NCBI GenBank assembly: GCA_001464585.1
Contig: LNFF01000008.1
Coordinates: forward strand, 1 to 64,000
Direction of reading: 5' to 3'
From: Gammaproteobacteria bacterium Ga0077554
GTDB lineage: Bacteria; Pseudomonadota; Gammaproteobacteria; Ga0077554; Ga007554
DNA: 64,000 bases
The position numbers were made by a program, and so were the translations under genes. Positions 3,266-61,338 of this stretch are shown here, in pieces. Each line of letters starts with the position of its first letter. Positions within the stretch are counted from its first letter, which is position 1. A model generated the notes under the pieces. The model was not told the DNA's origin. It made no database searches and was given only the letters and a program-made list of their open reading frames with translations.

Positions 3266-3300
3266 TGGTGGAGGCGGCGGGAATCGAACCCGCGTCCGCA
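3266..3300. other. Probable attachment site: ssrA 3' end
   Basis: The integrase-proximal boundary of the island falls at the 3' terminus of the tmRNA gene (T-arm and CCA end, 3266-3300). P4-type integrases recombine within such ends and restore the gene with an identical segment. The other att copy should lie beyond position 1 and cannot be seen here, so the exact core is unknown. Confidence 0.6.
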
Positions 3301-34718: not shown

Positions 34719-35450
34719 ATGGCATCTAATTCTTTCGCACCGCCGACCCACAAGCCGCGGCTCCTGATCGACTTGCTGGTTAGCATCGTCATTCCCTCCG
34801 TCATCCTGATGAAATTCAGCGGCGCGGCAGACTTGGGCGCCGCGCGGGCGCTGCTGCTGGCGCTGGCCTTTCCCATCGGCTGGGGGCTGTTCGAGTTGCT
34901 GAAATACCGAAAATTCAACTTCATCGCACTGCTGGGCCTGATCAGTGTCCTGCTCACTGGCGGTATCGGCCTGCTGCAACTGGATACGCAATGGCTGGCC
35001 GTAAAGGAGGCCGCCATTCCCGGCCTGATCGGCCTGGCCGTGCTCGTCTCTATCCGCACCCGCTACCCGCTGATCAAAACCCTGCTCTACAACCCGGCGC
35101 TGATCGACGTGGCGCGCGTGCGGCAACACCTGGAAGAACGGGGGACTGAGCAGGACTTTGAAGCCCGTTTGCAGACCGCCACCTGGCTGCTCGGCAGCAC
35201 CTTTTTCTTCTCCGCCGCCATGAATTATTTCCTGGCGACCTGGATCGTCACCAGCCCGGCCGGAAGCCAGGCCTTCAACGAAGAACTCGGCCGGCTCACC
35301 CTGATGAGCTACCCGATGATCGCCCTTCCGTCGATGCTGATGATGATGGCCGTGCTCTACTACCTCGCCCGTGCCGTGCGGCAACTCGCCGGACTGAAAC
35401 TAACCGACATGCTCAACCAGACCCCCAATCAGACCGGAGACCGCCCGTGA
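34719..35450 (+). CDS. VC0807-like multi-spanning membrane protein
   Basis: A 243-aa protein with about six membrane helices (for example LIDLLVSIVIPSVILMKF, FIALLGLISVLLTGGIGLL, LLGSTFFFSAAMNYFLATWI and LMSYPMIALPSMLMMMAVLY). The layout (KFSGA, LELLKYRKFN-like FELLKYRKFNFIALLG, a charged AAIPGLIGLAVLVS-RTRYPLI stretch) resembles the uncharacterised VC0807 family. It is the first of three overlapping genes (4-nt GTGA overlap with the next). The role is unknown; the linkage to a TerB-like protein suggests a membrane stress or envelope role, by inference only. Confidence 0.7.
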   Translation: MASNSFAPPTHKPRLLIDLLVSIVIPSVILMKFSGAADLGAARALLLALAFPIGWGLFELLKYRKFNFIALLGLISVLLTGGIGLLQLDTQWLAVKEAAIPGLIGLAVLVSIRTRYPLIKTLLYNPALIDVARVRQHLEERGTEQDFEARLQTATWLLGSTFFFSAAMNYFLATWIVTSPAGSQAFNEELGRLTLMSYPMIALPSMLMMMAVLYYLARAVRQLAGLKLTDMLNQTPNQTGDRP

Positions 35451-36418
35451 ACCCCGAACAGCAAAAATCCATCCTTTCCATTGCCCTGCTCGCCGCCTTT
35501 GCCGACGGCAACAAGGATGACCGCGAACGCGAACAGATTCGCCAACTGGCCGAATCGTTGGACAACGAGGCAGCCGTCCTCGATCTTGCACGTCTGTATC
35601 AGGATGTGCTGCTTAAGCGCGTCAGCTTGAGCAGCGCCGCCGCCGCGCTGACCGACCCCGAACACCGCCAGCTCGCCTATGAAATGGCGGTGTGTGTCTG
35701 CGATGCCGACGGGCGCCAGAGCGATGCCGAGAGTCGTTTCTTAAATGAACTGAAGGCCATGCTCAAGCTTGATGCGGGACAGGCCGCCGCCTTCGAGCAC
35801 GAAGCCGACGCCATCGTCGATCTTACCGAGGCGGCGGCGCCCTCCGTGGCGGCGGGCGTCGCCGCCACGCCCGGCCCGGTGGTGGCGGCCCAGCCGAACG
35901 TGCCCGAGGCGGAACTCGACAAATCCATCCTCAATTACGCCATCCTCAACGGCGCACTGGAACTATTGCCGCAGTCCTGGGCATCGATGGCCATCATTCC
36001 GCTGCAGATCAAGATGGTGTATAGCATTGGCAAGGCCCATGGCGTCGACCTCGACCAGGGCCATATCAAGGAATTCATCGCCGCCGCGGGCGTCGGGTTC
36101 ACTTCGCAATACCTCGAACAGTTCGGGCGCAAGCTGCTCGGCGGCCTGCTTGGCAAGGCGGCGGGCGGCCTGTTCGGCAAGGTCGGCAGCGCCGCCACCG
36201 GCATGGCTTTCTCCTTCGCCACCACCTATGCGCTGGGGCAACTCGCCAAACGCTATTACGCCGGCGGGCGGGTGATGAACACGGCGCTGCTGAAAGACAC
36301 GTTCCAGAACCTGCTGGGTCCGGCCAAGCAGATGCAAACGCAATACCTGCCGCAAATCCAGCAGAAAGCGGGCACGCTCGATATGGGCAGCGTCATGGCC
36401 ATGGTTCGGGGGGCATGA
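35447..36418 (+). CDS. TerB-like protein with C-terminal YcjF/DUF697-like region
   Basis: A 323-aa protein starting at GTG 35447, overlapping the previous stop. Residues 1-115 look like a TerB (tellurite-resistance-like) helical domain: ILSIALLAAFADGNKDDRER, then CVCDADGRQSDAESRFL. A Pro/Ala-rich linker follows. Residues 165-280 are like the glycine-rich helical DUF697/YcjF region (IIPLQIKMVYSIGKAHG, AAGVGFTSQ, GGLLGKAAGGLFG), which often sits next to membranes or GTPases. The exact function is unknown. It is the middle gene of a three-gene operon with a 4-nt overlap on each side. Confidence 0.75.
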   Translation: MNPEQQKSILSIALLAAFADGNKDDREREQIRQLAESLDNEAAVLDLARLYQDVLLKRVSLSSAAAALTDPEHRQLAYEMAVCVCDADGRQSDAESRFLNELKAMLKLDAGQAAAFEHEADAIVDLTEAAAPSVAAGVAATPGPVVAAQPNVPEAELDKSILNYAILNGALELLPQSWASMAIIPLQIKMVYSIGKAHGVDLDQGHIKEFIAAAGVGFTSQYLEQFGRKLLGGLLGKAAGGLFGKVGSAATGMAFSFATTYALGQLAKRYYAGGRVMNTALLKDTFQNLLGPAKQMQTQYLPQIQQKAGTLDMGSVMAMVRGA

Positions 36419-37029
36419 GCAAATTTTTCTGGTTGATCAGACTACTTTCGGAGCGCAGATCCATGAAAGGCATTTTTGTTGCGGGCGGCATCGGGTTCGT
36501 TGTGTTGCTGGTGCTGCTGGTGTGGGCAGGAGTGGCCGGGGTCGGCTTGGTCTCCGACCATCTGCCGCGCTGGCTGGCCAGCGGCGAGCAGTTCGCGACC
36601 GAAACCATGCGCAAAGCGCAGGAGACGTTGCCGACAGTCACGGACAAGGTCGCCGAATCCGCGCCCGGGCTGGCACGCCAGATTGAGGGGCTGATTCCTG
36701 GCACAGCTTTACCCGCAGAGGACGTGGGTGGTCAGGATCTGGCGGATATTCCCCGCTTCCCCGGCATGGTGCGGGTTGCCTACAGCCTTGCCGGACAGAA
36801 AAGAACCGTCGCCTACCAGGTACGGGCCGAGTTTGGCCAGGTCGTCGCGTTCTACGTCCGCGAAATGGCGCAACGGGGTTTTACCGGGCAGGTGACCTCC
36901 GCCGCTCCCGCCGAGGAGATTCATCTTTACCGCCGCAAGAACGAGCAGTTCACGTTCCGCTTCACAAAGCTTTCGCGGCTCGGCTCGGAAATCACCTCAC
37001 TGGAGATCAGCGAACCTGTAGAAAGGTAG
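36415..37029 (+). CDS. Hypothetical membrane-anchored protein, 204 aa
   Basis: One N-terminal helix (GIFVAGGIGFVVLLVLLVWAG) is followed by a mostly soluble domain of about 160 residues, probably periplasmic. No family is recognised. The C-terminal part, from DIPRFPGMVRVAYSLAGQKR to LYRRKNEQFTFRF, looks like a compact alpha/beta fold. The ATG overlaps the previous stop as ATGA, so it is translated with the TerB-like gene. A second in-frame ATG at 36463 would remove 16 residues before the helix. High G/C at third positions is shared with its operon. Confidence 0.65.
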   Translation: MSKFFWLIRLLSERRSMKGIFVAGGIGFVVLLVLLVWAGVAGVGLVSDHLPRWLASGEQFATETMRKAQETLPTVTDKVAESAPGLARQIEGLIPGTALPAEDVGGQDLADIPRFPGMVRVAYSLAGQKRTVAYQVRAEFGQVVAFYVREMAQRGFTGQVTSAAPAEEIHLYRRKNEQFTFRFTKLSRLGSEITSLEISEPVER

Positions 37030-46425: not shown

Positions 46426-47076
46426 ATGAAAATATCTCAATGGAAGCGCTACCAGCTTGCAGGGTTGCTGGTGTTTGTAGTCCCTTTACTATTAGCCGGG
46501 TGCGCTACGCGCAGCCTGCCGCCTTTGCCCACATCAAAAGGCGCCTTGCCCTCTACAACGGATCCGGCAAATTATAATTATCTGATCGGGCCCGGCGACA
46601 GCGTCAATATTTTCGTGTGGCGTAATGGTGAAGTTTCCACGACAGTGACAGTGCGTCCCGATGGAAAAATCACTACCCCACTGGTGGAAGACTTGCCCGC
46701 CAGCGGCAAGACGCCTACGCAATTGGCGCGTGATATTGAAAAAGCATTAAGTACATATATCAAAGAGCCTATTGTAACCATCATTGTAGGTGGATTCATT
46801 GGCCCCTACAGTGAACAGATTCGGGTGGTGGGTGAAGCGGCCCGACCCCAGGCATTACCTTATCGCCAGAAAATGAGCTTGCTCGATCTTATGATCGCAG
46901 TAGGCGGCATCACGGATTTTGCGGCAGGAAACCGTGCCAGCGTGGTGCGCTTTGTCGATGGCAAGCAAAGACAATTTTCAGTGCGTATTGAAGACTTGAT
47001 TAAAGATGGCGACATCAGCGCGAATGTTGACATGTTGCCAGGGGATATCTTGATTATACCCGAGTCGTGGTTCTGA
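46426..47076 (+). CDS. XrtA-system polysaccharide export lipoprotein (Wza-like)
   Basis: A 216-aa export protein. The signal ends in LLAGC (FVVPLLLAGC). It is followed by a polysaccharide biosynthesis/export domain (NYLIGPGDSVNIFVWRNGEV, RPDGKITTPLVEDL) and a SLBB-like end (VVGEAARPQALPYR, LPGDILIIPESWF). It should form the outer-membrane exit for the polymer. It begins the locus; a 132-bp gap separates it from the divergent bioA. Confidence 0.9.
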   Translation: MKISQWKRYQLAGLLVFVVPLLLAGCATRSLPPLPTSKGALPSTTDPANYNYLIGPGDSVNIFVWRNGEVSTTVTVRPDGKITTPLVEDLPASGKTPTQLARDIEKALSTYIKEPIVTIIVGGFIGPYSEQIRVVGEAARPQALPYRQKMSLLDLMIAVGGITDFAAGNRASVVRFVDGKQRQFSVRIEDLIKDGDISANVDMLPGDILIIPESWF

Positions 47077-47251
47077 TCTATCGCGGAAGCGCCAGTCGTT
47101 TCATCGTGGGCTTCCGGAGCTAAAACAAAGTATATACCAGTATTTTATTTTCGAAGGCGTGACGCCATTGCAAAAAATAATGGCACACATCGCGCCACAG
47201 AAACCTTGTAAAGAGGGGTTTCCTGTGAGTGTAGGGTCCTAAGGTGAAATA

Positions 47252-48826
47252 ATGCAAGATGTAATTGAGACATTATTGGTTCATGCGCGCGGCGTCTGGC
47301 GCCAGCGCTGGTATATGATATTGATAGTCTGGCTGGTATCGCTTGCTGGCTGGTTGGTAGTCTATAAACTGCCCGACCAATACAAGGCTTCCGCGCGCGT
47401 GTATGTAGATACCCAATCTATACTTAAACCATTACTGCGAGGATTAACTGTCGATAGCAATCAGGGCGCTCAACAAGTTGCCTTGATGACGCGCACCTTG
47501 TTGAGCCGTCCTAATCTCGAAAAAGTTGCGCGCATGACAGATCTTGATCTGAAAGGGCAGAACTCCGAACAGATGGAGGCGATACTCTCTGGTTTGGGCA
47601 AGGATATCGCACTCGAAGACACGGGTCGTGAAAATCTTTACACTATTTCTTATGTCAACAATGATCCCCAATTAGCCAAACGGGTAGTGCAATCATTATT
47701 AACCATTTTTGTAGAGAGTAGCCTGGGTGAAACGCGGCGCGACACTGATACCGCCCAACAGTTTATTGACAAACAAATCGCAGAATATGAAGCGCGCCTG
47801 GTAGAAGCTGAAGAGAAACTAAAAGAGTTCAAGCGCCAGAATGTCGGTGTCATGCCAGCGCGAGGTGAAGGTTATTACGAAAGCATGCAAGCCACAATGG
47901 GCGCTCTTGAGCAAGCGCAACTCGAGCTGCGTGAGGTGGAAAATCGACGCGATGAAATCAAGCGCCAGTTAGAAGATGAAGAACTTAACGCCGAGTCTGC
48001 AATTCCAGGCAAACCTGTAGCGGTAGTACCGTCCGCCGTCGATGGCCGCATACAAAGCCTGGAAGCCAAGATGGATGGGCTCTTGCTCCAGTTCACCGAG
48101 CGCCATCCCGATGTCATTGAGATCAAGCGCATTATTGCGCAACTGGAAAAACAAAAGCAGGAAGAACTCAAGGCGTCTATGCCTGCCGCTGGCGAGAAAC
48201 GACAGGAATCCAACCCGGTATATCTGCAATTAAAATTGGCATTAGGGGAGGCAGACGCAAATGTTGCTTCTTTACGTGTGCGCGTTAATGAGCATGCCCG
48301 GCGTGTCAATCAATTAAAAGCCATGGTGGATACCATACCGAAAGTTGAAACAGAACTGGGCCAGTTAAATCGTGACTATGATGTCAACAAACAGAATTAT
48401 GAAACCCTGTTGGCGCGTCGCGAAGCCGCAAAAATGTCCGAAGCAGCCGGCCAAACTTCTGACGAAGTAAAGTTCAAGGTAATTGATCCTCCTTACGTGC
48501 CGTCTACGCCTTCCAGCCCGAATCGTCCTTTGCTGATGTTGCTGGTATTGTTGGGCAGCTTGGCGGCAGGCATTGCATTTGCATTTTTATTAGCCCAGCT
48601 TAAGCCGGTATTTGATAGCCGCCGCAACCTGGCTGAAATTACGGGTTTGCCGGTGTTAGGCAGTATTTCCATGGTGTGGACGCCCGCCCAACGGCGCAAG
48701 CGGCGCATTGAACTGGGTTCCTTTGGGCTGGTGGGAGCAACGCTATTAATGATTTTTGGTGGCATCGAGACGCTGTTGCTGTTGAATGTTGACGTCGTAG
48801 GGCACATCAAAGGTTTGGTGGGGTAG
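47252..48826 (+). CDS. XrtA-system polysaccharide chain-length determinant (Wzz/GNVR)
   Basis: A 524-aa inner-membrane protein. Two helices (WYMILIVWLVSLAGWLVVYK and LLMLLVLLGSLAAGIAFAFL) frame a long periplasmic coiled coil (about 170-400). The N-terminal KASARVYVDTQSILKPLLRG and the GNVR-like ELGQLNRDYDVNKQNYETLL are typical. A third helix lies near the C-terminus. It controls chain length together with the tyrosine kinase encoded next (3-nt gap). A 175-nt gap separates it from the export gene. Confidence 0.92.
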   Translation: MQDVIETLLVHARGVWRQRWYMILIVWLVSLAGWLVVYKLPDQYKASARVYVDTQSILKPLLRGLTVDSNQGAQQVALMTRTLLSRPNLEKVARMTDLDLKGQNSEQMEAILSGLGKDIALEDTGRENLYTISYVNNDPQLAKRVVQSLLTIFVESSLGETRRDTDTAQQFIDKQIAEYEARLVEAEEKLKEFKRQNVGVMPARGEGYYESMQATMGALEQAQLELREVENRRDEIKRQLEDEELNAESAIPGKPVAVVPSAVDGRIQSLEAKMDGLLLQFTERHPDVIEIKRIIAQLEKQKQEELKASMPAAGEKRQESNPVYLQLKLALGEADANVASLRVRVNEHARRVNQLKAMVDTIPKVETELGQLNRDYDVNKQNYETLLARREAAKMSEAAGQTSDEVKFKVIDPPYVPSTPSSPNRPLLMLLVLLGSLAAGIAFAFLLAQLKPVFDSRRNLAEITGLPVLGSISMVWTPAQRRKRRIELGSFGLVGATLLMIFGGIETLLLLNVDVVGHIKGLVG

Positions 48827-48829
48827 CGT

Positions 48830-49810
48830 GTGAGTACAATCGAAAAAGCTGTAGAAAAAATGGAAAAGGCGCTGACCGTTTCAGAAGATGCTGCCACAAA
48901 GCAAGATGGCATACATCCACACCACGCCATCGGTGAAGATGTGTTTGAACGACTGACAATGAAAGACAGTCAGTCACCGGATGCTGCCAATGATGCGCGA
49001 AAGTCCGACAAAAAAAATCAACCTACCGCCAATACCCAATCCATCATCAATGTTTTAGAAGAGCGTGCGGCCCATGAGAAGCTGGATTTAGTGCGGCTCA
49101 AGGCGGCCGGGCTCATTACCCCCGAAACAGAGCGCAGCCAGGTTGCGGAAGAATTTCGCATGATCAAACGACCCTTGCTGAAAAATGCATTTGGGCAAGG
49201 TGCGATCCTGGTAGAAAATGGCAACCTTATTATGGTCAGTAGCGGTTTTCCTAATGAAGGAAAAACATTTACATCCATTAATCTGGCGTTAAGTATTGCT
49301 TCAGAGATGGATCATACCGTGTTATTGGTGGATGCTGATGTAGCACGTCCGGCGGTTACATCTTATTTTGGCATTGATACGGGTCCGGGCCTGGTAGACT
49401 ATTTGCTGGGTGAACAGCCTGATCTTTCAACACTGCTGATTAAAACTGATATTCCCAAGTTAACATTATTGCCCGCCGGCAAGCGACATCATCATTCAAC
49501 AGAGTTATTGGCCAGTGAAAGCATGCGCAATCTTCTCGAAGAATTATCTGCTCGTTATCCGGATCGTGTAATCATTTTTGACTCACCTCCGTTACTGGTG
49601 ACCACAGAGGCAAGCGTACTTGCAAGTCTGGTTGGGCAAATTGTCATTGTTGTAGAGTCCGAAAAAACCACACAGACCGGGCTGAAAGAAGCATTATCCC
49701 TGTTGGATCCTGACAAGAGCATTGGTCTTGTACTGAATAAGAGCCGTCAGCCATTCGGTTCTGAATATGGGGCGTATTATGGCTACTATGGCCATGAAAA
49801 GCCTCAATGA
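48830..49810 (+). CDS. XrtA-associated tyrosine autokinase
   Basis: A 326-aa bacterial tyrosine kinase of the Wzc-C/CpsD type. A variable, charged N-terminal half is followed by Walker A in VSSGFPNEGKTFTSINLALS, Walker A' VLLVDADVARP and Walker B VIIFDSPPLLV. The C-terminal Tyr cluster (YGAYYGYYGHEK) is the autophosphorylation site. It pairs with the chain-length protein to drive polymerisation and export. The start is GTG 48830 and the gene abuts the next. Confidence 0.92.
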   Translation: MSTIEKAVEKMEKALTVSEDAATKQDGIHPHHAIGEDVFERLTMKDSQSPDAANDARKSDKKNQPTANTQSIINVLEERAAHEKLDLVRLKAAGLITPETERSQVAEEFRMIKRPLLKNAFGQGAILVENGNLIMVSSGFPNEGKTFTSINLALSIASEMDHTVLLVDADVARPAVTSYFGIDTGPGLVDYLLGEQPDLSTLLIKTDIPKLTLLPAGKRHHHSTELLASESMRNLLEELSARYPDRVIIFDSPPLLVTTEASVLASLVGQIVIVVESEKTTQTGLKEALSLLDPDKSIGLVLNKSRQPFGSEYGAYYGYYGHEKPQ

Positions 49811-51289
49811 GTGCGTATCTTTATCGTGTGTCTAAAGAAAGATGTATACAGAAATGTGAAATGGAATTGGCTGCTTTTCTGGGCGGTGCTGATGATGCCT
49901 ACCCTGTCATGGGCGGCGAAATGGTCAGTAACCCCCTCGCTGACATTGTCTGAGACTTACACCAGCAATGTTAACATAGGCGGTGTAAGTAACGAACAGA
50001 GCGAGTTCATTACCCAGATTAATCCTGCTATTACTCTCACGGGTACCGGCCGTAGATTACAGCTTGATTTAAGCTATAACATGCAAAACGTGTTATATGC
50101 CAAAAATGCTAGCCGCAATACCACCTTCCATCAATTAAGAGCGCACGCGTTGGCTACATTGGTAAAGGACGCTTTATTTGTAGATACGTCAGCCTCGATT
50201 AGTCAACAGGCTATTTCCTTGCGTGAAGCAGCGCCTGTTGATAACCTCACTCTCAGCAATAATCGTACGGATGCCATAACATTTCATATAAGCCCTTACT
50301 TGCGCCATGCTTTTGGCGATGTGGCGACTACAGAGTTGCGTTATGGTTATGATAAAACTCATTATGAGGCGACGGGATTTGGCAGTGAATCAAACTCGTA
50401 TTCCGCAAGAATAACCAGTGGGGCAACTTTCAAGACTTTCCCCTGGGGTTTAGGCTATAGCCGGCGTGAAACGCCTGCTTCAAAACAAGTGCTTTCACCT
50501 ATTACATTTGAAACATATACGGCTGATTTACGTTATGTGGCAAGTCGCAAGTTAACATTCACAACATCCGGTGGATATGAAAACAATGAGTATGGCGCTT
50601 CCACATTACAGCGCACACCCAGTGGCGTTTTCTGGAATGCCGGGTTGATCTGGAGCCCGAGCGGCCGTACCTCCCTCCAGGCCAGTTATGGAAAGCGTTT
50701 TTTCGGCAACAATTATGCCCTTAGGGCTAATCATGTAACGCGGCGTAGCACATGGAATTTGAGTTATACGGAGAATGTAACCACCATAAACATGCTGCGC
50801 CCTGAAAGTCGTATCTTTATGATTTCGGACGGGGCGGGGGATGTATTCATCGACCCCCAGACTGGCTTGCCGATTTTGATTGCGTTCCTTGTTCCTACGC
50901 TGACCAATGAGGTCTATATCAGTAAAGGCTTGCAAGCCTTCATTGGTTATAAATTAAAAAGAAATGATTTTAATTTTTCGCTATTTAAGGAACGTCGCGT
51001 ATTTGAAAGGAGTGGTGAATTACAGAGATTACAAGGGGCGAATGTTTCATGGGCGCTACAGCTTGCCCCACATTCCAACTTATCAATCAACAGCGGATCG
51101 CAGAATATAGAATATAGCCTCGACAATCAGGCCGATGATTTTTGGCATATAGGCATGACATTGGGCCATGATATACAGCGTGACATTAAAGGGGCTATAG
51201 ACTTCCGTCATGCGGTCCGTAATTCAAACAGATCTATTAATGAATCTACTGAAAATAGAATAACTGCCCGTGTAACCGTGACATTTTGA
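49811..51289 (+). CDS. XrtA-system outer membrane beta-barrel (TIGR03016-like)
   Basis: A 492-aa protein. A membrane signal (WNWLLFWAVLMMPTLSWA) is followed by many short alternating strands, as in VTPSLTLSETYTSNVNI, LRYGYDKTHYEATG and YENNEYGAS. It ends RITARVTVTF with a terminal Phe, as outer-membrane barrels do. GTG 49811 adjoins the kinase stop; GTG 49856 would be an alternative that starts right at the signal. It probably forms part of the export or anchoring pore of the XrtA system. Confidence 0.85.
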   Translation: MRIFIVCLKKDVYRNVKWNWLLFWAVLMMPTLSWAAKWSVTPSLTLSETYTSNVNIGGVSNEQSEFITQINPAITLTGTGRRLQLDLSYNMQNVLYAKNASRNTTFHQLRAHALATLVKDALFVDTSASISQQAISLREAAPVDNLTLSNNRTDAITFHISPYLRHAFGDVATTELRYGYDKTHYEATGFGSESNSYSARITSGATFKTFPWGLGYSRRETPASKQVLSPITFETYTADLRYVASRKLTFTTSGGYENNEYGASTLQRTPSGVFWNAGLIWSPSGRTSLQASYGKRFFGNNYALRANHVTRRSTWNLSYTENVTTINMLRPESRIFMISDGAGDVFIDPQTGLPILIAFLVPTLTNEVYISKGLQAFIGYKLKRNDFNFSLFKERRVFERSGELQRLQGANVSWALQLAPHSNLSINSGSQNIEYSLDNQADDFWHIGMTLGHDIQRDIKGAIDFRHAVRNSNRSINESTENRITARVTVTF

Positions 51290-51299
51290 GACAATAAAA

Positions 51300-52298
51300 A
51301 TGTATGAAGCTTTTTATAAATTGCGTGACAGGCCCTTTCAGTTAAGCCCGGATCCACGTTTCTTTTTTGGTAGCCGTTGCCATAAACGTGCGATGGCATA
51401 CTTGCGTTATGGATTGGCCCAAGGCGAAGGATTTATTGTTATTACCGGGGATATCGGCACCGGAAAAACCACGTTGATGCGAACCTTGTTTTCTGACTTG
51501 AGCAAGGAAAATGTCGTGGCTGCCCAGTTGGTCACTACACAACTTGAAGCCGATGATATGTTGCGCATGGTCGCAGCCGCATTTGGTTTGGCACATGAAG
51601 GTGTGAGCAAGGCGGGCTTGCTGAAAAATCTTGAAACATTTCTCATGGCGCGTAACCGGGAAGGAAAACGCGTATTGCTGGTAGTGGATGAAGCCCAGAA
51701 TATTCCACCACGCGCGCTTGAAGAGTTGCGTATGTTGTCTAACTTCCAGGTGGGAGAAAAAGCGCTCTTGCAAAGTTTTCTGTTGGGCCAACAAGAGTTT
51801 CGTCAGACCCTCCAGGGAGAAGGCATGGAGCAATTACGCCAACGGGTTATTGCCGCGTATCATCTTACACCTTTGGATGTGGATGAGACACGCTCATACA
51901 TGGAACACCGGCTGCGGTTGGTGGGGTGGACGGGTGATCCTTCCTTTAGCGAAAGTGCCTATGCCGCCATTCATAAAGCAACGGTAGGGATACCGCGTCG
52001 CATCAATACTTTTTGTGACAGATTGATGTTGTATGGATTCCTTGAAGAAACTCATGTGATCAGCGAAAAAACAGTTGATGCGGTTTCTCAGGAGTTACTG
52101 CAGGAAAGTCCCCATCTGGGGCGTGTCACTGCTCCTGGTGCCCAGCGTGGCACTTTTTCAGAGTCACCGGTTGAGCAGCGCCTGCTGGCATTGGAAGGTT
52201 CAGTGCAGAAATTGCAGGACTCTATTTTTCGTGAATTAGGCATGATACGCCGTGCTGTTGCGCCGCCGAATCCAATGGATGCTACTGAAGACAAGTAG
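51300..52298 (+). CDS. XrtA-associated ATPase (ExeA/GspA-like)
   Basis: A 332-aa AAA+-type ATPase: FYKLRDRPFQLSPDPRFFF at the start, Walker A GDIGTGKTTLMRTLF, Walker B LLVVDEAQNIPPRALEELR, and sensor parts (LSNFQVGEKALLQSFLLGQ, GIPRRINTFCDRLMLYG). It resembles ExeA and is a constant part of the PEP-CTERM/XrtA cluster. The role, perhaps regulation or assembly of export, is not settled. A C-terminal coiled end (RLLALEGSVQKLQDSIFREL) may bind a partner. Confidence 0.9.
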   Translation: MYEAFYKLRDRPFQLSPDPRFFFGSRCHKRAMAYLRYGLAQGEGFIVITGDIGTGKTTLMRTLFSDLSKENVVAAQLVTTQLEADDMLRMVAAAFGLAHEGVSKAGLLKNLETFLMARNREGKRVLLVVDEAQNIPPRALEELRMLSNFQVGEKALLQSFLLGQQEFRQTLQGEGMEQLRQRVIAAYHLTPLDVDETRSYMEHRLRLVGWTGDPSFSESAYAAIHKATVGIPRRINTFCDRLMLYGFLEETHVISEKTVDAVSQELLQESPHLGRVTAPGAQRGTFSESPVEQRLLALEGSVQKLQDSIFRELGMIRRAVAPPNPMDATEDK

Positions 52299-52331
52299 TG
52301 CTGTACATAAATTTAGCATTGGAGCAGGGAT

Positions 52332-53471
52332 TTGACCAAGCAACTAGCGCCAAAAGTACTGTGTGTGGTAGGCGCCCGCCCCAACTTTATGAAAATCGCC
52401 CCCATTATGGATGCCTTGGCGGCCTCGCCATTGCAGGTGCGGCTGGTGCATACCGGCCAGCATTATGATGAGGCGATGAAGCATCAGTTTTTTAATCAGT
52501 TAGGCATACCTCGCCCTGACATGGATCTGGAAGTGGGTTCGGGTAGCCATGCAGTTCAGACCGCAGAAGTGATGCGTCGTTTTGAGCCCGTGGTAGATGC
52601 GGAGCAGCCCAATGCAGTATTAGTGGTAGGCGATGTTAATTCCACTATTGCCTGCGCATTAGTCGCGTCAAAAAAAGGCATTCCTGTGGTTCATGTTGAA
52701 GCCGGGTTGCGCAGCTATGACCGTACCATGCCCGAAGAAATTAACCGCATTCTTACCGATCAGATTTCCGATTTATTATTTACCACAGAACGTAGTGCGC
52801 GCGATAATCTGTTACGCGAAGGTATCGCAGATGAGCGTATACATTTTGTCGGTAACGTAATGATTGACACCTTGTTGCGTCATGTCAAACAAGCGGTGCC
52901 TGTAGAGCAGGTTTTATCCGGGTTTGTGAATGCCCCCGTATTTTTACAGAGTGCTACAGGTTATGGTGTTTTGACGTTGCATCGTCCTTCGAATGTTGAT
53001 GATCCCGTAGTCCTGGAAAGGCTGCTGGTCACATTGCGAAACATCAGCGAACGCCTACCTTTGATATTCCCTGTCCACCCACGCACTGAGTCGCGTATTA
53101 AAGCTTTGGGTTTGGAATCTCTCACGCTCACGCCGCGTATTCAACGACTGCCGCCACAAGGGTATCTTGAGATGCTGGGTTTAATGTCACGCGCGCGTTT
53201 GGTATTGACGGATTCAGGTGGTATTCAGGAAGAAACAACTGCGTTGGGTGTGCCGTGCATCACGCTAAGAGAAAGTACTGAGCGCCCCATCACGGCTGAG
53301 CAAGGCACCAATACTATTGTTGGCACTGACCCTGAAAAAATTCTTTCTGCCGCCAATGAAATTTTAAGCGAAGCCTTAAGCAAAGGCAGAAAAGCGGGCC
53401 AGGTGCCTGAATTATGGGATGGTCGTGCAGCGCAGCGTATTGCAGTAATTCTGGAAAAATGGTTAAAGTGA
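52332..53471 (+). CDS. wecB: UDP-N-acetylglucosamine 2-epimerase
   Basis: A 379-aa non-hydrolysing epimerase: VVGARPNFMKIAPIMDAL, VHTGQHYDEAM, HVEAGLRSYDRTMPEE, LTLHRPSNVD, VHPRTESRI and the DSGGIQEETTALGVPCITLR active-site strip. It makes UDP-ManNAc from UDP-GlcNAc, a likely sugar of the exported polymer. The start is TTG 52332 with a GGGA site upstream. It overlaps the next gene by 13 nt if ATG 53459 is used. Confidence 0.95.
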   Translation: MTKQLAPKVLCVVGARPNFMKIAPIMDALAASPLQVRLVHTGQHYDEAMKHQFFNQLGIPRPDMDLEVGSGSHAVQTAEVMRRFEPVVDAEQPNAVLVVGDVNSTIACALVASKKGIPVVHVEAGLRSYDRTMPEEINRILTDQISDLLFTTERSARDNLLREGIADERIHFVGNVMIDTLLRHVKQAVPVEQVLSGFVNAPVFLQSATGYGVLTLHRPSNVDDPVVLERLLVTLRNISERLPLIFPVHPRTESRIKALGLESLTLTPRIQRLPPQGYLEMLGLMSRARLVLTDSGGIQEETTALGVPCITLRESTERPITAEQGTNTIVGTDPEKILSAANEILSEALSKGRKAGQVPELWDGRAAQRIAVILEKWLK

Positions 53472-54379
53472 ACCATAAAAATTTAATATCCAATGCGATG
53501 ACAGTGGACGTAGAAGACTACTTCCAGGTGTCCGCTTTTGAAAAACATATCCATCGTGATCAGTGGGATATGCTGTCATGTCGGGTAGATGCTAATACTA
53601 ATCGCGTCATGGATTTGTTTGACAAACACAGTGTTAAAGCGACTTTTTTTATGCTGGGTTGGGTGGCTGAACGCTATCCGCAATTGGTGCGCCGCATCGT
53701 TGATGATGGCCATGAACTCGCCAGTCATGGTTATTCTCATGTGCGGGTGACACAGCAACAGCCCCATGAGTTTCGTGACGATATTGTCCGCACAAAAAAA
53801 CTTTTGGAAGATCTTGGCGGTGTGGCGGTGCGAGGTTATCGCGCCGCCAGTTATTCGATAGGCGCAAGTAATTTATGGGCGCTGGATGAGCTTGCCGAAG
53901 CCGGACATAGCTATAGCTCAAGCATTTATCCCATTAAACATGATCTTTACGGTATGCCGGAAGCACCGCGCTTTGCTTTTTATCCGCATCATGACAAGCG
54001 TCTTCTGGAAATACCTGTCACCACGGTCAGTGTGTTTGATAAAAAACTGCCTTGTGGCGGCGGGGGATACTTTCGTTTTTTCCCCTATGATTTGTCACGT
54101 TGGGCAATGCAACGCGTTAATCAGCGCGATGGTCAAGCATGCATTTTTTATTTCCACCCGTGGGAAGTTGACCCCGGGCAGCCCCGTCAACACGGGGTGG
54201 GTATTAAAACGCGTTTCCGTCATTATCTAAACCTTCATCGCATGGAGCACCGCTTGGACGCCTTGTTAAAGGATTTTCAATGGAATCGTATGGATCGCCT
54301 GTTTCTGGATAGTGCTTTAAATTCCAAGCCTGCTGCGGTCTGGCCAATAAGTTCGATCGTGGTGCCGCATGCAAGTTAA
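53459..54379 (+). CDS. XrtA-system polysaccharide deacetylase (DUF3473)
   Basis: A 306-aa protein of the NodB fold with a C-terminal DUF3473. NAMTVDVEDYFQVSAFEKHI holds the catalytic Asp and metal Asp, HGYSHVRVTQQQPHEF the metal His pair, RGYRAASYSIG the third motif, and IFYFHPWEVDPGQPR the final His. It removes acetyl groups from the polymer or its intermediates. Start at ATG 53459 (GGA upstream) or GTG 53468; an upstream frame only reads wecB. It overlaps the FemAB gene by 11 nt. Confidence 0.93.
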   Translation: MVKVNHKNLISNAMTVDVEDYFQVSAFEKHIHRDQWDMLSCRVDANTNRVMDLFDKHSVKATFFMLGWVAERYPQLVRRIVDDGHELASHGYSHVRVTQQQPHEFRDDIVRTKKLLEDLGGVAVRGYRAASYSIGASNLWALDELAEAGHSYSSSIYPIKHDLYGMPEAPRFAFYPHHDKRLLEIPVTTVSVFDKKLPCGGGGYFRFFPYDLSRWAMQRVNQRDGQACIFYFHPWEVDPGQPRQHGVGIKTRFRHYLNLHRMEHRLDALLKDFQWNRMDRLFLDSALNSKPAAVWPISSIVVPHAS

Positions 54380-55403
54380 ACGCCTCGATTTAAAAAAGGG
54401 TGTGATTGACCGCGCTCGCTGGGATGCCTTTGTTGCCACTTGTCCTGAAGCGACCTTTTTTCATCGCGCCGGATGGAAAGAAATTATTGAAGATACCCTG
54501 GGTCATGCCTGTTATTTTCTGTATGCCGAGCATGATGGTGAAATTCAGGGTGTGTTGCCGTTAGGCCATGTGCGCAGCCGCCTATTTGGTAATGCGCTTA
54601 CGTCGATGCCATTTTGTGTGTACGGTGGCATCGCTGCGATGAATCAGGATGCCCGCAGGCTTTTAGATGAAGAAGCGCAACGCCTGGCATTGGAACTGAA
54701 GGTGGATCATTTGGAAATGCGCAACCTTAAGCCGCAGCATGCTGACTGGCCGACCAAAGATTTATACGTTACTTTTCGTAAAGAAATTGATCCTGATCCT
54801 GAAAAAAATATGTTGGCGATTCCGCGAAAACAGCGCGCAATGGTGCGCAAAGGCATCAAGGCGGAGTTGATGAGTGAGGTCGATGAAGATGTGGGGCGTT
54901 TTTACGAGGCTTATGCGACCAGTGTTTATTGTTTGGGTACGCCTGTAAATAGCATACATTTCTATAAAAAAATAAAACATGTATTCGGCGCGGAATGCGA
55001 AATTCTTACCATTACCAAGGATGGACGGGTGATTAGCAGCGTGATGAGTTTCTACTTTCGTGACGAAGTGTTGCCTTATTATGGGGGTGGTACAAACGAA
55101 GCGCGTGAATTTGCCGCGAATGATTTTATGTATTGGGAGCTGATGCGCCGCGCGGCTGAGCGTGGCATCCGGATTTTTGATTTCGGCCGCAGTAAAAAAG
55201 GGACGGGCTCCTATAGTTTCAAGGAGCATTGGGGTTTTGAGCCACAGCCTTTATATTATGAACATTATTTATTGGGCATCAAAGAAATGCCAGAAATCAA
55301 TCCGCTCAATCCAAAATATCAGTTATTTATTCGCGCATGGAAAGCCATGCCCTATGCTCTGACTAAAATCATCGGCCCGATGGTTGCAAAAAATCTAGGG
55401 TAG
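54369..55403 (+). CDS. XrtA-system FemAB-like protein
   Basis: A 344-aa GNAT-fold protein of the FemAB/peptidoglycan-bridge type found in XrtA clusters: CPEATFFHRAGWKEIIEDTL, GVLPLGHVRSRLFGNALTSM, DHLEMRN, RKQRAMVRKGIKA, and FDFGRSKKGTGSYSFKEHWG at the end. It may attach an amino acid to a sugar, but the donor and acceptor are unknown. It overlaps the deacetylase by 11 nt and precedes two glycosyltransferases. Confidence 0.92.
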   Translation: MQVKRLDLKKGVIDRARWDAFVATCPEATFFHRAGWKEIIEDTLGHACYFLYAEHDGEIQGVLPLGHVRSRLFGNALTSMPFCVYGGIAAMNQDARRLLDEEAQRLALELKVDHLEMRNLKPQHADWPTKDLYVTFRKEIDPDPEKNMLAIPRKQRAMVRKGIKAELMSEVDEDVGRFYEAYATSVYCLGTPVNSIHFYKKIKHVFGAECEILTITKDGRVISSVMSFYFRDEVLPYYGGGTNEAREFAANDFMYWELMRRAAERGIRIFDFGRSKKGTGSYSFKEHWGFEPQPLYYEHYLLGIKEMPEINPLNPKYQLFIRAWKAMPYALTKIIGPMVAKNLG

Positions 55404-55409
55404 TGAATC

Positions 55410-56699
55410 ATGCAGGAACTGTTGTTTCTCGCCCATCGCATTCCTTATCCACCTAACAAAGGGGATAAGATCCGCTCTTATCATGTATTGAAATACCTGG
55501 CTGGAAAATACCGTGTACACCTTGGCACGTTCGTTGATGACGAACAGGATTGGCAATATATGCCAGTGTTAAAGGATTTATGTGGTGAAACGCATTTTAT
55601 TGGCTTGGATTCACGGATGGCGCGTTTACGCAGTGCAAAGGGATTGCTGAGTGGTGAGGCGCTCACACTGCCGTATTATTATGATGCGAACATGCAGGAT
55701 TGGGTCACGCACTTGCTGGAAAATAATCCGGTGCATAGAGTATTTATTTTTTCATCGGGTATGGCGCAGTATGTTGCTGGGCAGCGATGGTCAAGTATAC
55801 GCCGTGTGATTGATTTTGTTGATGTGGATTCGGATAAATGGCGGCAATATGCTAAAAGTAAATCCTGGCCGATGAGTGCTGTTTACGAGCGTGAAGCGCG
55901 GCGACTGGAAACTTATGAGCGCCGCATAGCCGCAGAATTTGATGCCAGTGTGTTGGTTTCACAAGATGAAGCCAAGCTGTTTAAAACACTGGCGCCGGAA
56001 AGTGCAGTGCGCATTGATTATCTGAATAATGGAGTAGATAGCGAGTATTTCTCGCCGCACCGGCATTATGCCAATCCTTATTCTCCCGATGAGAAAGTGT
56101 TAGTGTTTACCGGTGCCATGGACTATTGGGCGAATGTTGATGCGGTCACATGGTTTGCACAGGAAGTTTTTCCGCAGATAGTTCAGCGCAACCCAAAGGC
56201 TCGTTTTTATATTGTAGGTGGGCGCCCGGGATCAGCCGTAAAGCAACTGGAAAACATTGCAGGGGTTCATGTGACGGGCGGAGTGCCCGATGTGCGGCCT
56301 TACCTTGCCCACGCAGTTGCTGCTGTAGCGCCGCTGCGTATCGCGCGTGGTGTGCAAAACAAGGTGCTGGAAGCCATGGCCATGGCCAAACCTGTGTTGG
56401 GGACTTCGGCAGCAGTGGAAGGTATTGAGTCTGGCGTTAATGGTGCCAGTGCATTCAATGCCGAATCCAATGAAGGCACAGGTATTGTCGTGGCAGATGA
56501 TGTTACGGAGTGTGTGGAACAGGCTTTGCGCTTGTTACAGGGAGAGCCGAATGCTACCGGGCGCGCCTATGTATTGAAAAAATATACATGGGCTGAAAAT
56601 TTGAAGAGACTGGATCGCTTACTGGAAGGCGATGTTGTGCTTGCGGCAAATAGTTCGGCGCACACAAATGCGCAAGAGAGTGCGGTGATTGCGCCATGA
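55410..56699 (+). CDS. XrtA-system glycosyltransferase (TIGR03087-like, GT4 fold)
   Basis: A 429-aa glycosyltransferase. It opens LLFLAHRIPYPPNKGDKIRS with DVDSDKWRQYAKSK in the middle. The GT4-type C-terminal domain has VLVFTGAMDYWANVDAVTWF, FYIVGGRPG and VQNKVLEAMAMAKPVLGTSA. This is a marker of XrtA loci. The sugar donor cannot be read from the sequence. The stop overlaps the next start as ATGA. Confidence 0.93.
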   Translation: MQELLFLAHRIPYPPNKGDKIRSYHVLKYLAGKYRVHLGTFVDDEQDWQYMPVLKDLCGETHFIGLDSRMARLRSAKGLLSGEALTLPYYYDANMQDWVTHLLENNPVHRVFIFSSGMAQYVAGQRWSSIRRVIDFVDVDSDKWRQYAKSKSWPMSAVYEREARRLETYERRIAAEFDASVLVSQDEAKLFKTLAPESAVRIDYLNNGVDSEYFSPHRHYANPYSPDEKVLVFTGAMDYWANVDAVTWFAQEVFPQIVQRNPKARFYIVGGRPGSAVKQLENIAGVHVTGGVPDVRPYLAHAVAAVAPLRIARGVQNKVLEAMAMAKPVLGTSAAVEGIESGVNGASAFNAESNEGTGIVVADDVTECVEQALRLLQGEPNATGRAYVLKKYTWAENLKRLDRLLEGDVVLAANSSAHTNAQESAVIAP

Positions 56700-57850
56700 C
56701 AGCCCCACTTCTTCCCTTGGTGGCGCATGTGATACACCGTCTGGATGTGGGGGGACTGGAAAATGGTTTGGTGAATATCATTAACCATATGCCAGAAGGA
56801 CGTTATCGCCATGCGATTATTTGCATGACGGATTATAATTCGGGTTTTCGTGCGCGGATCAAGCAGAACAATGTCGAATGTTATGCACTGCATAAGCGTG
56901 AGGGTAAAGATCCAGGAATCTATTTTCGGCTATGGCGTTTATTTAAACATTTGCGTCCTATTATAGTGCATACCCGTAATTTATCTGCATTAGAGGCTCA
57001 ATTGCCCGCCGCTCTGGCGGGTGTGCATTGTCGTGTGCAGGGTGAGCATGGCCGCGACGTTCACGACATCGACGGGCGTAATCGCAAATATAATCTACTG
57101 CGCCGTGTTTTTCGGCCATTAGTGGATCGTTATATCCCATTATCGCGGGATCTGGAGCAGTGGCTACGCAACCAGGTCGGCGTGGCCGATAACAAGATTG
57201 TCACTATTTGTAATGGCGTGGATAGTGAGCTTTTTCATCCTGCACTCGCGGGTCGTGAAGCGTTGCCCGTGGAAGGTTTCGTAGGAGCGGATAGCATTGT
57301 TATCGGTACTGTGGGGCGCATGCAAACGGTCAAGGATCAACTGACGCTGGTGCGTGCCTTTGTGCTGCTGCTGGAGCGGTTACCGGAACTTCGACGCCGT
57401 CTGCGTCTGGTGTTGATTGGGGACGGACCATTGCGTGCGCAGGCGCAGATGCTGTTACAGCAGGCTAACGCACTGGAGTTGTGCTGGTTGCCAGGTTCGC
57501 GTGATGACACCCCAAATTTATTGCGTGGCATGGATATTTTTGTGCTGCCCTCGCTGGCTGAAGGTATTTCCAATACTATACTCGAGGCGATGGCGAGTGG
57601 CTTACCCGTGGTTGCTACTCATGTAGGGGGCAATCCTGAGCTGATTGTGGAAGGGCAAACTGGCACATTGGTGCCGCCAGCGAATCCCGCTGCTATGGCA
57701 GATGCATTGCAGCGTTATGTAGAAGACGCCGCCTTGCGGCGCGAGCATGGTGCACAAGGACGGCAGCGTATTGAACAGGAGTTTAATCTTGACGCTATGG
57801 TGCAGCGTTATTTGTCTGTGTATGACGATGTTATCAAAGAAAAATATTAA
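56696..57850 (+). CDS. XrtA-system glycosyltransferase (TIGR03088-like, GT4 fold)
   Basis: A 384-aa glycosyltransferase: HVIHRLDVGGLENGLVNIIN, VQGEHGRDVHDIDGRNRKYN, VIGTVGRMQTVKDQLTLVRA, LLRGMDIFVLPSLAEGISNT, and GLPVVATHVGGNPELIVEG. The N-terminal acceptor part and the HGRDVHDIDG motif mark the XrtA-associated group. The 4-nt overlap with the gene before suggests coupled translation. The donor sugar is unknown. Confidence 0.93.
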   Translation: MTAPLLPLVAHVIHRLDVGGLENGLVNIINHMPEGRYRHAIICMTDYNSGFRARIKQNNVECYALHKREGKDPGIYFRLWRLFKHLRPIIVHTRNLSALEAQLPAALAGVHCRVQGEHGRDVHDIDGRNRKYNLLRRVFRPLVDRYIPLSRDLEQWLRNQVGVADNKIVTICNGVDSELFHPALAGREALPVEGFVGADSIVIGTVGRMQTVKDQLTLVRAFVLLLERLPELRRRLRLVLIGDGPLRAQAQMLLQQANALELCWLPGSRDDTPNLLRGMDIFVLPSLAEGISNTILEAMASGLPVVATHVGGNPELIVEGQTGTLVPPANPAAMADALQRYVEDAALRREHGAQGRQRIEQEFNLDAMVQRYLSVYDDVIKEKY

Positions 57851-57892
57851 CGTAATACATAATCCGAAACTTATTTAAAAGGCGATTAATCT

Positions 57893-59791
57893 ATGTGTGG
57901 CATAGCCGGCATTTTTGAGACGCGTGAAGCGCGTGCAATAGATGAAGCTTTGCTGGCGCGCATGAATCAAACCCAGTTTCATCGTGGGCCAGATGAAGGG
58001 GGGCAGCATACTGAGCCGGGCGTGGGTCTGGCGCATCGGCGCCTGTCGATCATTGATCTTTCCAGTGGGCATCAACCGCTATTTAACGAAGACAATTCAG
58101 TTGTCGTGGTTTTTAATGGTGAGATTTATAATTTTCAGGAACTTGCCCAGGAGCTTACGGCGCTCGGCCATACTTTCCGTACGCACAGTGATACCGAGGT
58201 TATAGTCCACGGCTGGGAACAGTGGGGTGCAGATTGCGTAAAACGCTTTCGTGGCATGTTTGCTTTTGCGCTATGGGATCGTAATCGCCAGACCTTTTTT
58301 ATGGCGCGTGACCGGCTTGGCATCAAGCCCATGTATTACGCGTATCTTCCGGATGGAAAGCTGATATTTTCATCTGAGCTGAAAGCGTTATGGGTGCATT
58401 CCAATTTGTCGCGTGAAATTGATCCGCGTGCTGTAGAAGATTATTTTGCCTATGGTTACGTGCCCGAACCAAAAACCATATTACGGCAGGCCTTTAAATT
58501 ATCGCCAGGGTATACCCTGACAATCAAGCGCGGCGAAACAATCCCTCAGCCACGTCAATATTGGGATGTGCCGTTTAAATTCGTTGGAAATATCAGTGGT
58601 AAGCAGCTTGAAGAAGAGCTGATCCATCGTCTGCGCGACGCAGTGAGTAGCCACATGATTTCTGAAGTACCACTGGGCGCATTTCTCTCGGGCGGTGTTG
58701 ATTCGAGCGCTGTGGTGGCGATGATGGCGGGTGTGTCAAAAGAGCCGGTCAACACCTGCTCCATTTCCTTTGGTGACCCTGCCTTTGACGAGGCGCGCTA
58801 TGCCGCACAAGTGGCCGAGCGCTATCATACCCGCCATTACGTCGAGCGCGTGGATGCAGATGATTATGATCTGGTTGATCGCCTTGCAGCTTTATATGAT
58901 GAGCCGTATGCCGATAGTTCCGCATTGCCTACCTACCGGGTGTGTGAGCTGGCGCGCAAGCATGTCACCGTGGTTTTGTCGGGCGATGGTGGGGATGAAA
59001 ATTTTGCGGGTTATCGGCGTTATCGCTGGCATACCTATGAAGACCGCATGCGTTCTTTGCTACCGCAAGGTATCCGTGGGCCAGGGTTTGGTTTGTTAGG
59101 CCGATTGTATCCAAAGGCCGATTGGGCGCCGAAAGTGTTTCGTGCCAAAACGACCTTTGAAGCCATGGCGCGTGATTCAGTGGCGGGTTATTTTCATGGC
59201 GTATCGATATTGAGTGATGCATTACGTACCCGCTTGTTCAGCCCAGCTTTTCGCCGTGAGTTGCAAGGTTATCAAGCGGTTGAAGTATTGCGTGAACATG
59301 CGCGCAATGCGCCTGACCATCCGCTGTCGAAGGTGCAATATCTGGATATGAAAACCTATCTGGTGGGTGATATTCTCACCAAGGTAGATCGCGCCAGCAT
59401 GGCGCATGCCCTGGAAGTGCGTGTCCCTTTGCTTGACCATGAATTTGTGGAATGGGTGTCTGGCCTATCACCGGAACTCAAGCTGCACGGCCGTGAGGGA
59501 AAATATATTTTCAAGAAATCACTACAACCGTATTTGTCAGATGATATTTTATATCGCTCCAAGATGGGCTTTAGCGTACCGTTGGCCAGTTGGTTCCGTG
59601 GCCCATTGCGCGAACGGTTGCGTGATGCATTGTTGGGGCCGACATTGGCGGATACCGGAATTTTTGATCAAAATTGCTTACGTCAACTGGTTGATCAACA
59701 TCAATCGGGGGCGCGTGACCACAGTGCTTCTTTATGGGCGCTGTTGATGTTTGAAGCGTTTCAGCGACAGGCAGTAGGAGCTCGGGTATGA
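57893..59791 (+). CDS. XrtA-system amidotransferase (asparagine-synthetase-like)
   Basis: A 632-aa AsnB-like enzyme. Cys2 opens the glutaminase half (MCGIAGIFETREARAI, HRGPDEGG). The synthetase half has the PP-loop LSGGVDSSAVVAMMA, SGDGGDENFAGYRRYRW and LTKVDRASMAHALEVRVPLL. Such XrtA-linked members (TIGR03108) are thought to amidate a sugar or peptide rather than to make asparagine; this is inference from context. It overlaps the exosortase gene by 4 nt. AAGG lies before the ATG. Confidence 0.93.
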   Translation: MCGIAGIFETREARAIDEALLARMNQTQFHRGPDEGGQHTEPGVGLAHRRLSIIDLSSGHQPLFNEDNSVVVVFNGEIYNFQELAQELTALGHTFRTHSDTEVIVHGWEQWGADCVKRFRGMFAFALWDRNRQTFFMARDRLGIKPMYYAYLPDGKLIFSSELKALWVHSNLSREIDPRAVEDYFAYGYVPEPKTILRQAFKLSPGYTLTIKRGETIPQPRQYWDVPFKFVGNISGKQLEEELIHRLRDAVSSHMISEVPLGAFLSGGVDSSAVVAMMAGVSKEPVNTCSISFGDPAFDEARYAAQVAERYHTRHYVERVDADDYDLVDRLAALYDEPYADSSALPTYRVCELARKHVTVVLSGDGGDENFAGYRRYRWHTYEDRMRSLLPQGIRGPGFGLLGRLYPKADWAPKVFRAKTTFEAMARDSVAGYFHGVSILSDALRTRLFSPAFRRELQGYQAVEVLREHARNAPDHPLSKVQYLDMKTYLVGDILTKVDRASMAHALEVRVPLLDHEFVEWVSGLSPELKLHGREGKYIFKKSLQPYLSDDILYRSKMGFSVPLASWFRGPLRERLRDALLGPTLADTGIFDQNCLRQLVDQHQSGARDHSASLWALLMFEAFQRQAVGARV

Positions 59792-61338
59792 ATGGTGTGA
59801 CAAATCTGTCTGGATCATCAATGTATCAAGGGTGGCGCTCACCAGCGATATTAACTGTGGTGATTGTGTTGACTACCTTGGGCCTCTTCTGGCAAACGGC
59901 GCATTCCATGGTGGATATCTGGTGGCGTTCTGAAACATTTGCCCACGGTTTTTTGATTCTGCCCATCAGTCTTTGGCTAATCTGGAGCAAACGAAAAACC
60001 TTGGCAACGCTGCAACCCATGCCTAATTTATGGGGATTGATACCCTTGTTTGGATTGGTGCTGCTGTGGCTGGTTTCGAATCTTGTTGATATTCTGGTAA
60101 TCCAGCAATTTGCATTGGTTGCCATATTGATTGTTACGGTATGGACAATATTAGGCAATAAAGTCACATGGGCGATCGCTTTTCCACTGGGTTTTTTATT
60201 TTTTGCCGTGCCAGTGGGTGAGGCATTGATTCCACCCCTCATGGAGTTTACCGCTGATTTTACTGTAATGGCGTTGCAGTTGACGGGTATTCCAGTCTAT
60301 CGGGAAGGTATGTTCTTCGAAATTCCCAGCGGACATTGGTCGGTGGTGGAAGGTTGTAGTGGTTTGCGTTATTTGATCGCATCCATTACTTTGGGATTTT
60401 TGTATGCTTACCTTACCTACTATACCTTGTGGCGCCGCCTGTTATTTATTGTATTGGCTGTTATTGTCCCCATCATCGCTAATGGTGGGCGCGCTTACAT
60501 GATCGTTATGATTGCCCACCTGAGTGATATGAAGCTCGCTTTAGGTGTGGATCATTATATTTATGGTTGGGTATTTTTCGGTATTGTTATGTTGCTGCTA
60601 TTCTGGATAGGAAATTTTTGGCGTGAAGATAAAGATCCAGCAGCCATTCCTGCGCCACGGATATCAGCAAGTGCAGTTGCTTCCCAAAATAAAAATATTC
60701 TATTGATAGCGCTAGGATGCCTGGCGTTAATAAGCATGGCTCCCTTTGCAGCTTATCTTTATCAGCGTGGCGCCCCTGAAGTTACCACTGTAACACTTAA
60801 AGCTCCAGAACCTGTTGCGGCATGGCAGTTTGGCATAACACCTGCGTGGGACTGGAAACCCCGTTATTTGGGCATGAGTGCAGAATTACAGCAGACCTAT
60901 GTGCGTGGAAATCAACCCGCCAGTATTTATTTGGCTTATTATCGCAATCAGCATCAAGATGCGGAATTAGTGAATTCCCAGAATGTCATGATTCCACAAA
61001 AAGATGCTCGCTGGAGCAATATAGGCGAGAAAAGTATTGTTATTTCATTAGCTGGACAACCTGTCGAAGTACGTCAAACCCAATTGCGTTCTGCAGGCGA
61101 GAATCTCTTGATTTGGGATTGGTATTGGCTCGATGGCACGTATACCTCGAATCCCTATATTGCAAAGCTTGTAGAGGCTAAAGGGAAATTGTTCGGCAGA
61201 CAACGTAATGCTGCGAGCATTATCATTGCGACACGATACGATGAGAGAATACAGCCAGCCGCAGCAGTTCTGCAAGAAATGGTTACGGCGATGCTGCCTG
61301 CTATTGAAGCCAGCCTTCAACAGGCATCAAAGCAATAG
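59788..61338 (+). CDS. xrtA: Exosortase A fused to EpsI domain
   Basis: A 516-aa membrane protein. About eight helices form the exosortase (1-290) with the catalytic triad in sight: Cys190 in VVEGCSGLRYL, Arg235 in ANGGRAYMIV and His256 in VDHYIYGW. The C-terminal EpsI domain (about 310-516: PVAAWQFGITPAWDWKPRY, YLAYYRNQHQDAELVNSQN) is periplasmic. Exosortase A cuts PEP-CTERM tails and joins the protein to an exported product. It overlaps the amidotransferase by 4 nt. PEP-CTERM substrates are not in this window. Confidence 0.96.
   Translation: MNGVTNLSGSSMYQGWRSPAILTVVIVLTTLGLFWQTAHSMVDIWWRSETFAHGFLILPISLWLIWSKRKTLATLQPMPNLWGLIPLFGLVLLWLVSNLVDILVIQQFALVAILIVTVWTILGNKVTWAIAFPLGFLFFAVPVGEALIPPLMEFTADFTVMALQLTGIPVYREGMFFEIPSGHWSVVEGCSGLRYLIASITLGFLYAYLTYYTLWRRLLFIVLAVIVPIIANGGRAYMIVMIAHLSDMKLALGVDHYIYGWVFFGIVMLLLFWIGNFWREDKDPAAIPAPRISASAVASQNKNILLIALGCLALISMAPFAAYLYQRGAPEVTTVTLKAPEPVAAWQFGITPAWDWKPRYLGMSAELQQTYVRGNQPASIYLAYYRNQHQDAELVNSQNVMIPQKDARWSNIGEKSIVISLAGQPVEVRQTQLRSAGENLLIWDWYWLDGTYTSNPYIAKLVEAKGKLFGRQRNAASIIIATRYDERIQPAAAVLQEMVTAMLPAIEASLQQASKQ

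Follow-up and report, generated by a model that had tools for sequence, protein, structure and literature searches.

Proteins of the YciB, VC0807, TerB and DUF697 types are widely distributed but little understood, and some predicted defence systems contain TerB domains. In the accounts on which we draw, TerB is a binding partner of TerC, the two being linked to the response to inner-membrane stress (PMC11003894, citing Turkovicova 2016), and membrane fluidity in Escherichia coli is maintained by YciB together with DcrB (PMC9487459, citing Mychack and Janakiraman 2021). The TerB-TerC unit belongs to the ter tellurite operons, and the YciB-DcrB pair is made of a multi-pass protein of the YciB superfamily and an inner-membrane-anchored periplasmic protein of the DcrB fold. 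A further point of comparison is the tLST (or LHR), a mobile cluster of stress genes in beta- and gammaproteobacteria that includes a protease of the HtpX type. TerB-linked membrane stress modules are a known kind, of which the three-gene operon analyzed here (hereafter the trio) is most likely a variant with a mobile parent cluster, seemingly undescribed.

The operon and its chromosomal setting

The trio lies in a stretch of 64,000 nucleotides, called the window throughout. The original prediction had reported three open reading frames joined by 4-nt overlaps and had assigned them VC0807, TerB and YcjF-like domains; frames, coordinates and overlaps were all confirmed, and the domain calls were supported. 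The features are as follows.

34719..35450, + strand: P1, VC0807-family multi-pass inner-membrane protein, apparent distant relative of YciB/IspA, 243 aa
35447..36418, + strand: P2, TerB plus DUF697 (YcjF-like) protein, 323 aa, GTG start
35474..35788, + strand: TerB domain of P2, residues 10-114, with two D-x6-E motifs (D20/E27 and D88/E95), by Pfam match
35909..36319, + strand: DUF697/YcjF-like C-terminal domain of P2, approximately residues 155-291, by blastp
36415..37029, + strand: P3, single-pass protein without sequence family, 204 aa
36478..36552, + strand: transmembrane helix of P3, approximately residues 22-46, by hydropathy
36757..37017, + strand: C-terminal alpha/beta domain of P3, residues 115-201, predicted DcrB/EagT6-like fold, by AlphaFold and Foldseek

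P1 and P2 overlap by GTGA at 35447-35450, and P2 and P3 by ATGA at 36415-36418. A promoter and terminator scan near the trio gave no excess over shuffled sequences. By eye, the genes upstream are the pet genes (Rieske protein, cytochrome b and cytochrome c1) and, in divergent orientation, a small cytochrome c, and those downstream are enolase followed by ftsB-, ispD-, ispF- and truD-like genes; the neighbors are ordinary chromosomal housekeeping genes.

The TerB domain and the link to inner-membrane stress are common to the trio and the TerB-TerC unit, and P2 often adjoins a TerC-family gene in other genomes. Differences reside in the extra DUF697 domain of P2, in the partners, as no TerD, TerE or TerZ was recognized, and in the position of TerC, which is found here on another contig (C15, the only one found), the true YciB of this genome being on contig C35. 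Membership of a ter tellurite operon, in which TerB stands with TerC, TerD and TerE, was considered and rejected: inspection by eye recognized none of these partners near the trio in the window.

Elsewhere in the window, a long cluster of exopolysaccharide and exosortase-like genes, by eye of the XrtA/PEP-CTERM type, extends over 46426-61338. A tmRNA gene with the tag ANDDNYALAA occupies 3266-3635 on the minus strand, and a phage-type-integrase-like gene lies just beyond it at 1824-3077.

Domains and folds of the three proteins

P2 scores 33.1 bits against TerB (PF05099; Pfam cut-off 24.4), which makes it a member, and is also above the Pfam cut-off for DUF533 (PF04391). TerB is matched by all 46 P2 orthologs, and six acidic residues of the domain (D20, E27, D53, E79, D88 and E95) are invariant in the 46 P2 sequences, which suggests that the TerB domain of P2 binds a divalent metal. 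Matches to the TerB structures 2ou3 and 2jxu were weak, as were the fold matches to TerB (E 0.4 and above), and only the helical layout of the P2 structure model (mean pLDDT 68) is usable. Concerning the second half of P2, the window protein gave no match to DUF697 (PF05128, cut-off 27.7) at E 1, and 4 of the 46 orthologs match it, the best at 1.4e-4. Sixteen other proteins, most of them of the GTPase-DUF697 type, align through their C-terminal domain with this part of P2 (blastp, to 1e-13), and one of these GTPases (L036) matches PF05128 over the same residues as the P2 alignment. Judging from these alignments, the YcjF-like half of P2 appears to be a DUF697 domain, homologous to that of YcjF and of the GTPase-DUF697 proteins; the latter carry a GTPase domain where P2 has TerB.

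P1 belongs to the VC0807 family (NF041646), with 192.3 bits over residues 15-213 (E=6e-57) against a curated cut-off of 65 bits. Where the original prediction had six helices, hydropathy gives five clear membrane helices and leaves space for a sixth. Against YciB/IspA (PF04279), P1 reaches 18.2 bits, under the Pfam cut-off of 28.7, and is not a member, versus 234 bits for the true YciB on contig C35. However, PF04279 is matched weakly by 37 of 40 P1 family members from other genomes (best 1.8e-5), which argues that P1 is a distant YciB relative and neither YciB nor its orthologue. This Pfam scan of the 40 members replaced an hhalign comparison of P1 with YciB, which gave no support on alignments that were shallow (Neff below 2). 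Between sister species, P1 is under purifying selection (dN 0.022 and dS 0.173 against the sister genome G002).

In P3, a single transmembrane helix, strongly hydrophobic (hydropathy 2.8 at residues 28-46), is followed by a long helix and then by a compact domain of the alpha/beta type. The N-terminus is probably cytoplasmic, judging from the basic residues among its first 19 positions. The 18 aligned homologues of the family have in common a transmembrane helix at the N-terminus and a conserved domain at the C-terminus, with a helical stretch that varies between them. No Pfam family was found for the window protein or its homologues, and a profile search of the PDB gave no match. The AlphaFold model has a mean pLDDT of 79, with 84-97 per 10-residue block in the C-terminal domain, mostly above 90. 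Its best Foldseek match is DcrB (6e8a), weak at E 2.9e-3 and a TM score of 0.29 by query, followed by EagT6 and CalU16; LpqN and BamC are within the best 13, and all of these are weak, at E 2.9e-3 and above. Assignment of P3 to the DcrB family (PF08786) was rejected, none of the 18 homologues matching it, and no DcrB was found in the genome of the trio (G000). In another genome (G332), a close P3 relative (L158:5864-6421) stands without P2, its neighbors being a zinc-ribbon protein and metal efflux genes of the CDF/CzcA-like kind.

In composition, P1 and P3 recall the E. coli pair, with one multi-pass protein of the YciB superfamily and one anchored, putatively periplasmic protein of a DcrB-like fold. 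Yet P1 is of the VC0807 family and is not a YciB orthologue, and P3 is anchored by a transmembrane helix, smaller than DcrB and below any DcrB sequence threshold. The resemblance, which draws on weak fold similarity, is offered as a hypothesis only. We know of no TerB-DUF697 protein that is part of the E. coli YciB-DcrB pair.

Linkage of the genes and the larger stress cluster

P2 was surveyed with one genome per species, giving 80 loci, or 77 after merging four near-identical ones, and neighbors were tabulated by HMM over these 77 independent loci. P1 lies within 10 kb of P2 in 14 of them and P3 in 17, whereas arithmetic predicts that one copy placed at random in a 3-4 Mb genome would come this close to P2 in about 0.5% of cases. 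Both linkages are therefore far above chance, and relatedness among the loci inflates the counts but cannot explain the gap. In about 11 independent loci besides the window, the gene immediately upstream of P2, in the same orientation, is P1 (gap -4 to 309 nt); in five loci P3 takes the place immediately upstream (gap -4 to 34 nt). Overlaps of 4 nt recur as well, between P1 and P2 in one locus (L044) and between P3 and P2 in two (L088 and L109).

Other genomes bear out linkage of the genes, on which the original prediction hinged, though gene order differs between loci, most cases are pairs, and P1 is often alone. The intact, contiguous and overlapping set was found only in this genome. Its suggestion of one machine is favored by the recurring P1-P2 and P3-P2 adjacency. 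Alternatively, the three genes might be cotranscribed for convenience only, with functions that have nothing to do with one another. P1 is without P2 nearby in most P1-bearing gammaproteobacteria and thus cannot depend on it, P2 and P3 are each also found alone, and the set of three was seen once, all of which fits such a fortuitous assembly. However, the pairs recur in different orders with overlaps or short gaps, and P3 is rare in the class (strong match in 4 of 369 sampled genomes, compared with 32 of 369 for P1) yet common near P2; we consider this alternative quite unlikely.

P3 was not found in G001, in G002 or in four family members, and the G002 contig ends inside P2. In this sister genome, P1 and P2 are conserved with a MITE-like element of about 160 bp between them (L177:244-403, on contig 12); it has 32-nt inverted ends, replaces the last P1 residues and supplies the P1 stop codon, and G000 and G002 have several related copies at other sites.

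In 45 of the 77 loci, P2 is part of a shuffled cluster that varies in order and content. Its gene pool includes a divergent NhaR-type LysR regulator, a RaiA-like protein, P3, HtpX, TerC, an ion channel and P1, as well as amphi-Trp, YqaA-like and AI-2E-like proteins, a P-type cation ATPase, a CaCA exchanger and SbtA/SbtB; a YccA-like protein is also seen. The most frequent neighbors are HtpX (25 of 77), TerC (23), RaiA-like (19) and P-type cation ATPase (15), followed by the ion channel (13), YccA/Bax1-like (10), SbtA (9) and CaCA (9). Pfam matches of example proteins confirm HtpX, TerC, rhodanese, ion channel, ATPase and exchanger, with amphi-Trp just under the cut-off; LysR, RaiA, SbtA/B, YqaA, AI-2E and YccA-like are names given by eye. 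The recurrence of SbtA/SbtB-like bicarbonate transporter and PII-like genes (for example in L033/L034) is odd outside carbon-concentrating bacteria. Sixteen loci show neither the cluster nor a yciB setting, and in 16 loci, mainly of Hydrogenophaga type, P2 is divergent from a true yciB; those sampled form one clade (100/99), and this adjacency, divergent and confined to one clade, points to a single event.

A tree of P1 proteins places the one from the window among those of the cluster type (support 98/92), and the preferred reading of the window operon is as a reduced relative, on the chromosome, of the larger cluster. The same group includes one member without P2, in the NhaR-RaiA-SbtA-SbtB-CaCA cluster of genome G134 (L159:4153-8981), and some other P1-type proteins without P2 (L161 and L163) stand in a neighborhood of this kind or beside HtpX, the VC0807 gene of L163 adjoining HtpX.

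Pollutimonas, two species of Luteimonas and Azoarcus share a 17-21 kb version of the cluster at 99.8% identity (positions 1-20993 of L048, L049 and L052, and 1-17316 of L050), with conjugative-element-like genes, by eye, near 18-20.5 kb toward one end. From this identity, one version of the cluster is evidently mobile and was recently transferred between families, unless the assemblies are contaminated. Mobility and the HtpX-type protease are reminiscent of the tLST, and a PsiE-like gene of the tLST is also present in L042 (by eye). However, ion transport genes, TerC, P1, P2 and P3 are not among the tLST genes in the tLST literature examined, and the core dna-hsp20-clpG was not seen by eye around the P2 loci read or in the window. 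A literature search retrieved no paper on the "VC0807 family", none combining DUF697 with TerB, and none joining at least four of htpX, nhaR, terC, raiA, sbtA and yciB; the parent inner-membrane and cation stress cluster is apparently undescribed.

The stress and ion-transport genes around P2 in other genomes agree with the membrane-linked stress role originally proposed. They could also signify an accessory role for the trio in regulating cation and pH transport, where P2 gates or tunes cation ATPases, TerC and exchangers, P1 is a transporter or channel subunit and membrane integrity is secondary. P2 indeed clusters with P-type cation ATPase, CaCA, TerC, SbtA/SbtB, an Ion_trans channel and NhaR-type LysR, and a Mrp-type antiporter locus follows in L044 (by eye). 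We judge this explanation unlikely, as the HtpX, YccA-like and RaiA-like neighbors are equally frequent and fit membrane-protein quality control, the trio has no transporter neighbor in the window, and the only distant relative of P1 with known biology is YciB. That the locus is a true ter-type determinant of tellurite or heavy-metal resistance appears more doubtful still, and distinctly improbable: the TerB domain, the frequent TerC and the efflux genes (CDF and CzcA-like, by eye) beside the P3 relative in L158 speak for it, but the TerC neighbors belong to the general family, TerB domains are present in many non-tellurite proteins, and no TerD/TerE-type genes were recognized in the P2 neighborhoods read by eye.

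An anti-phage system, at which the original prediction had hinted in naming phage resistance, is very improbable. Beyond the general occurrence of TerB domains in predicted defence systems, a single weak PADLOC match connects the DUF697 half to PDC-S29 (E 0.005). However, the trio and seven flanking genes gave no PADLOC match at E<=0.001, no P2 homologue was found in phage or plasmid records, the neighbors of P2 are stress and transport genes, and those of the trio are housekeeping ones (pet operon, enolase, ftsB, ispD/ispF).

Proposed function and significance

We propose, with about even confidence, that the trio is a small inner-membrane stress module in which P2 is the sensor and adaptor, P1 its target and P3 a periplasmic partner. 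P2 would reside in the cytoplasm or at the membrane edge, where its TerB domain may bind a divalent cation through the D-x6-E motifs, or sense the state of the membrane, and its DUF697 half would dock on or into the inner membrane. It would then act on P1, the multi-pass protein of the YciB superfamily, in a putative complex, with P3 contributing a membrane-anchored DcrB-like domain on the presumed periplasmic side. Together, they would keep the inner membrane and ion balance intact under a stress that may be of cation, pH or membrane-protein origin. This reading builds on the TerB-TerC unit, on the protease and cation-transporter neighbors and on the likeness of P1 and P3 to YciB-DcrB; pointing the other way are the remoteness of TerC and YciB in this genome, the frequent occurrence of P1 alone, the single sighting of the trio, the weakness of the fold matches and the restriction of the divergent P2-yciB arrangement to one clade.

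A bolder version, which we put forward as speculative and rather unlikely, is that the TerB-DUF697 protein would be the sensor of an undescribed, mobile system for inner-membrane stress, linking an envelope pair of YciB-like and DcrB-like proteins to the level of divalent cations, and that the NhaR-RaiA-HtpX-TerC-ATPase cluster would be a second stress island distinct from the tLST. We found no description of this stress cluster, which apparently moves between proteobacterial families. The recurring and partly mobile link of YciB, VC0807, TerB and DUF697 proteins with one another and with TerC, HtpX and cation pumps provides a testable route to the roles of TerB and YciB proteins and raises the question of whether a metal-binding TerB domain regulates a YciB-type membrane protein.
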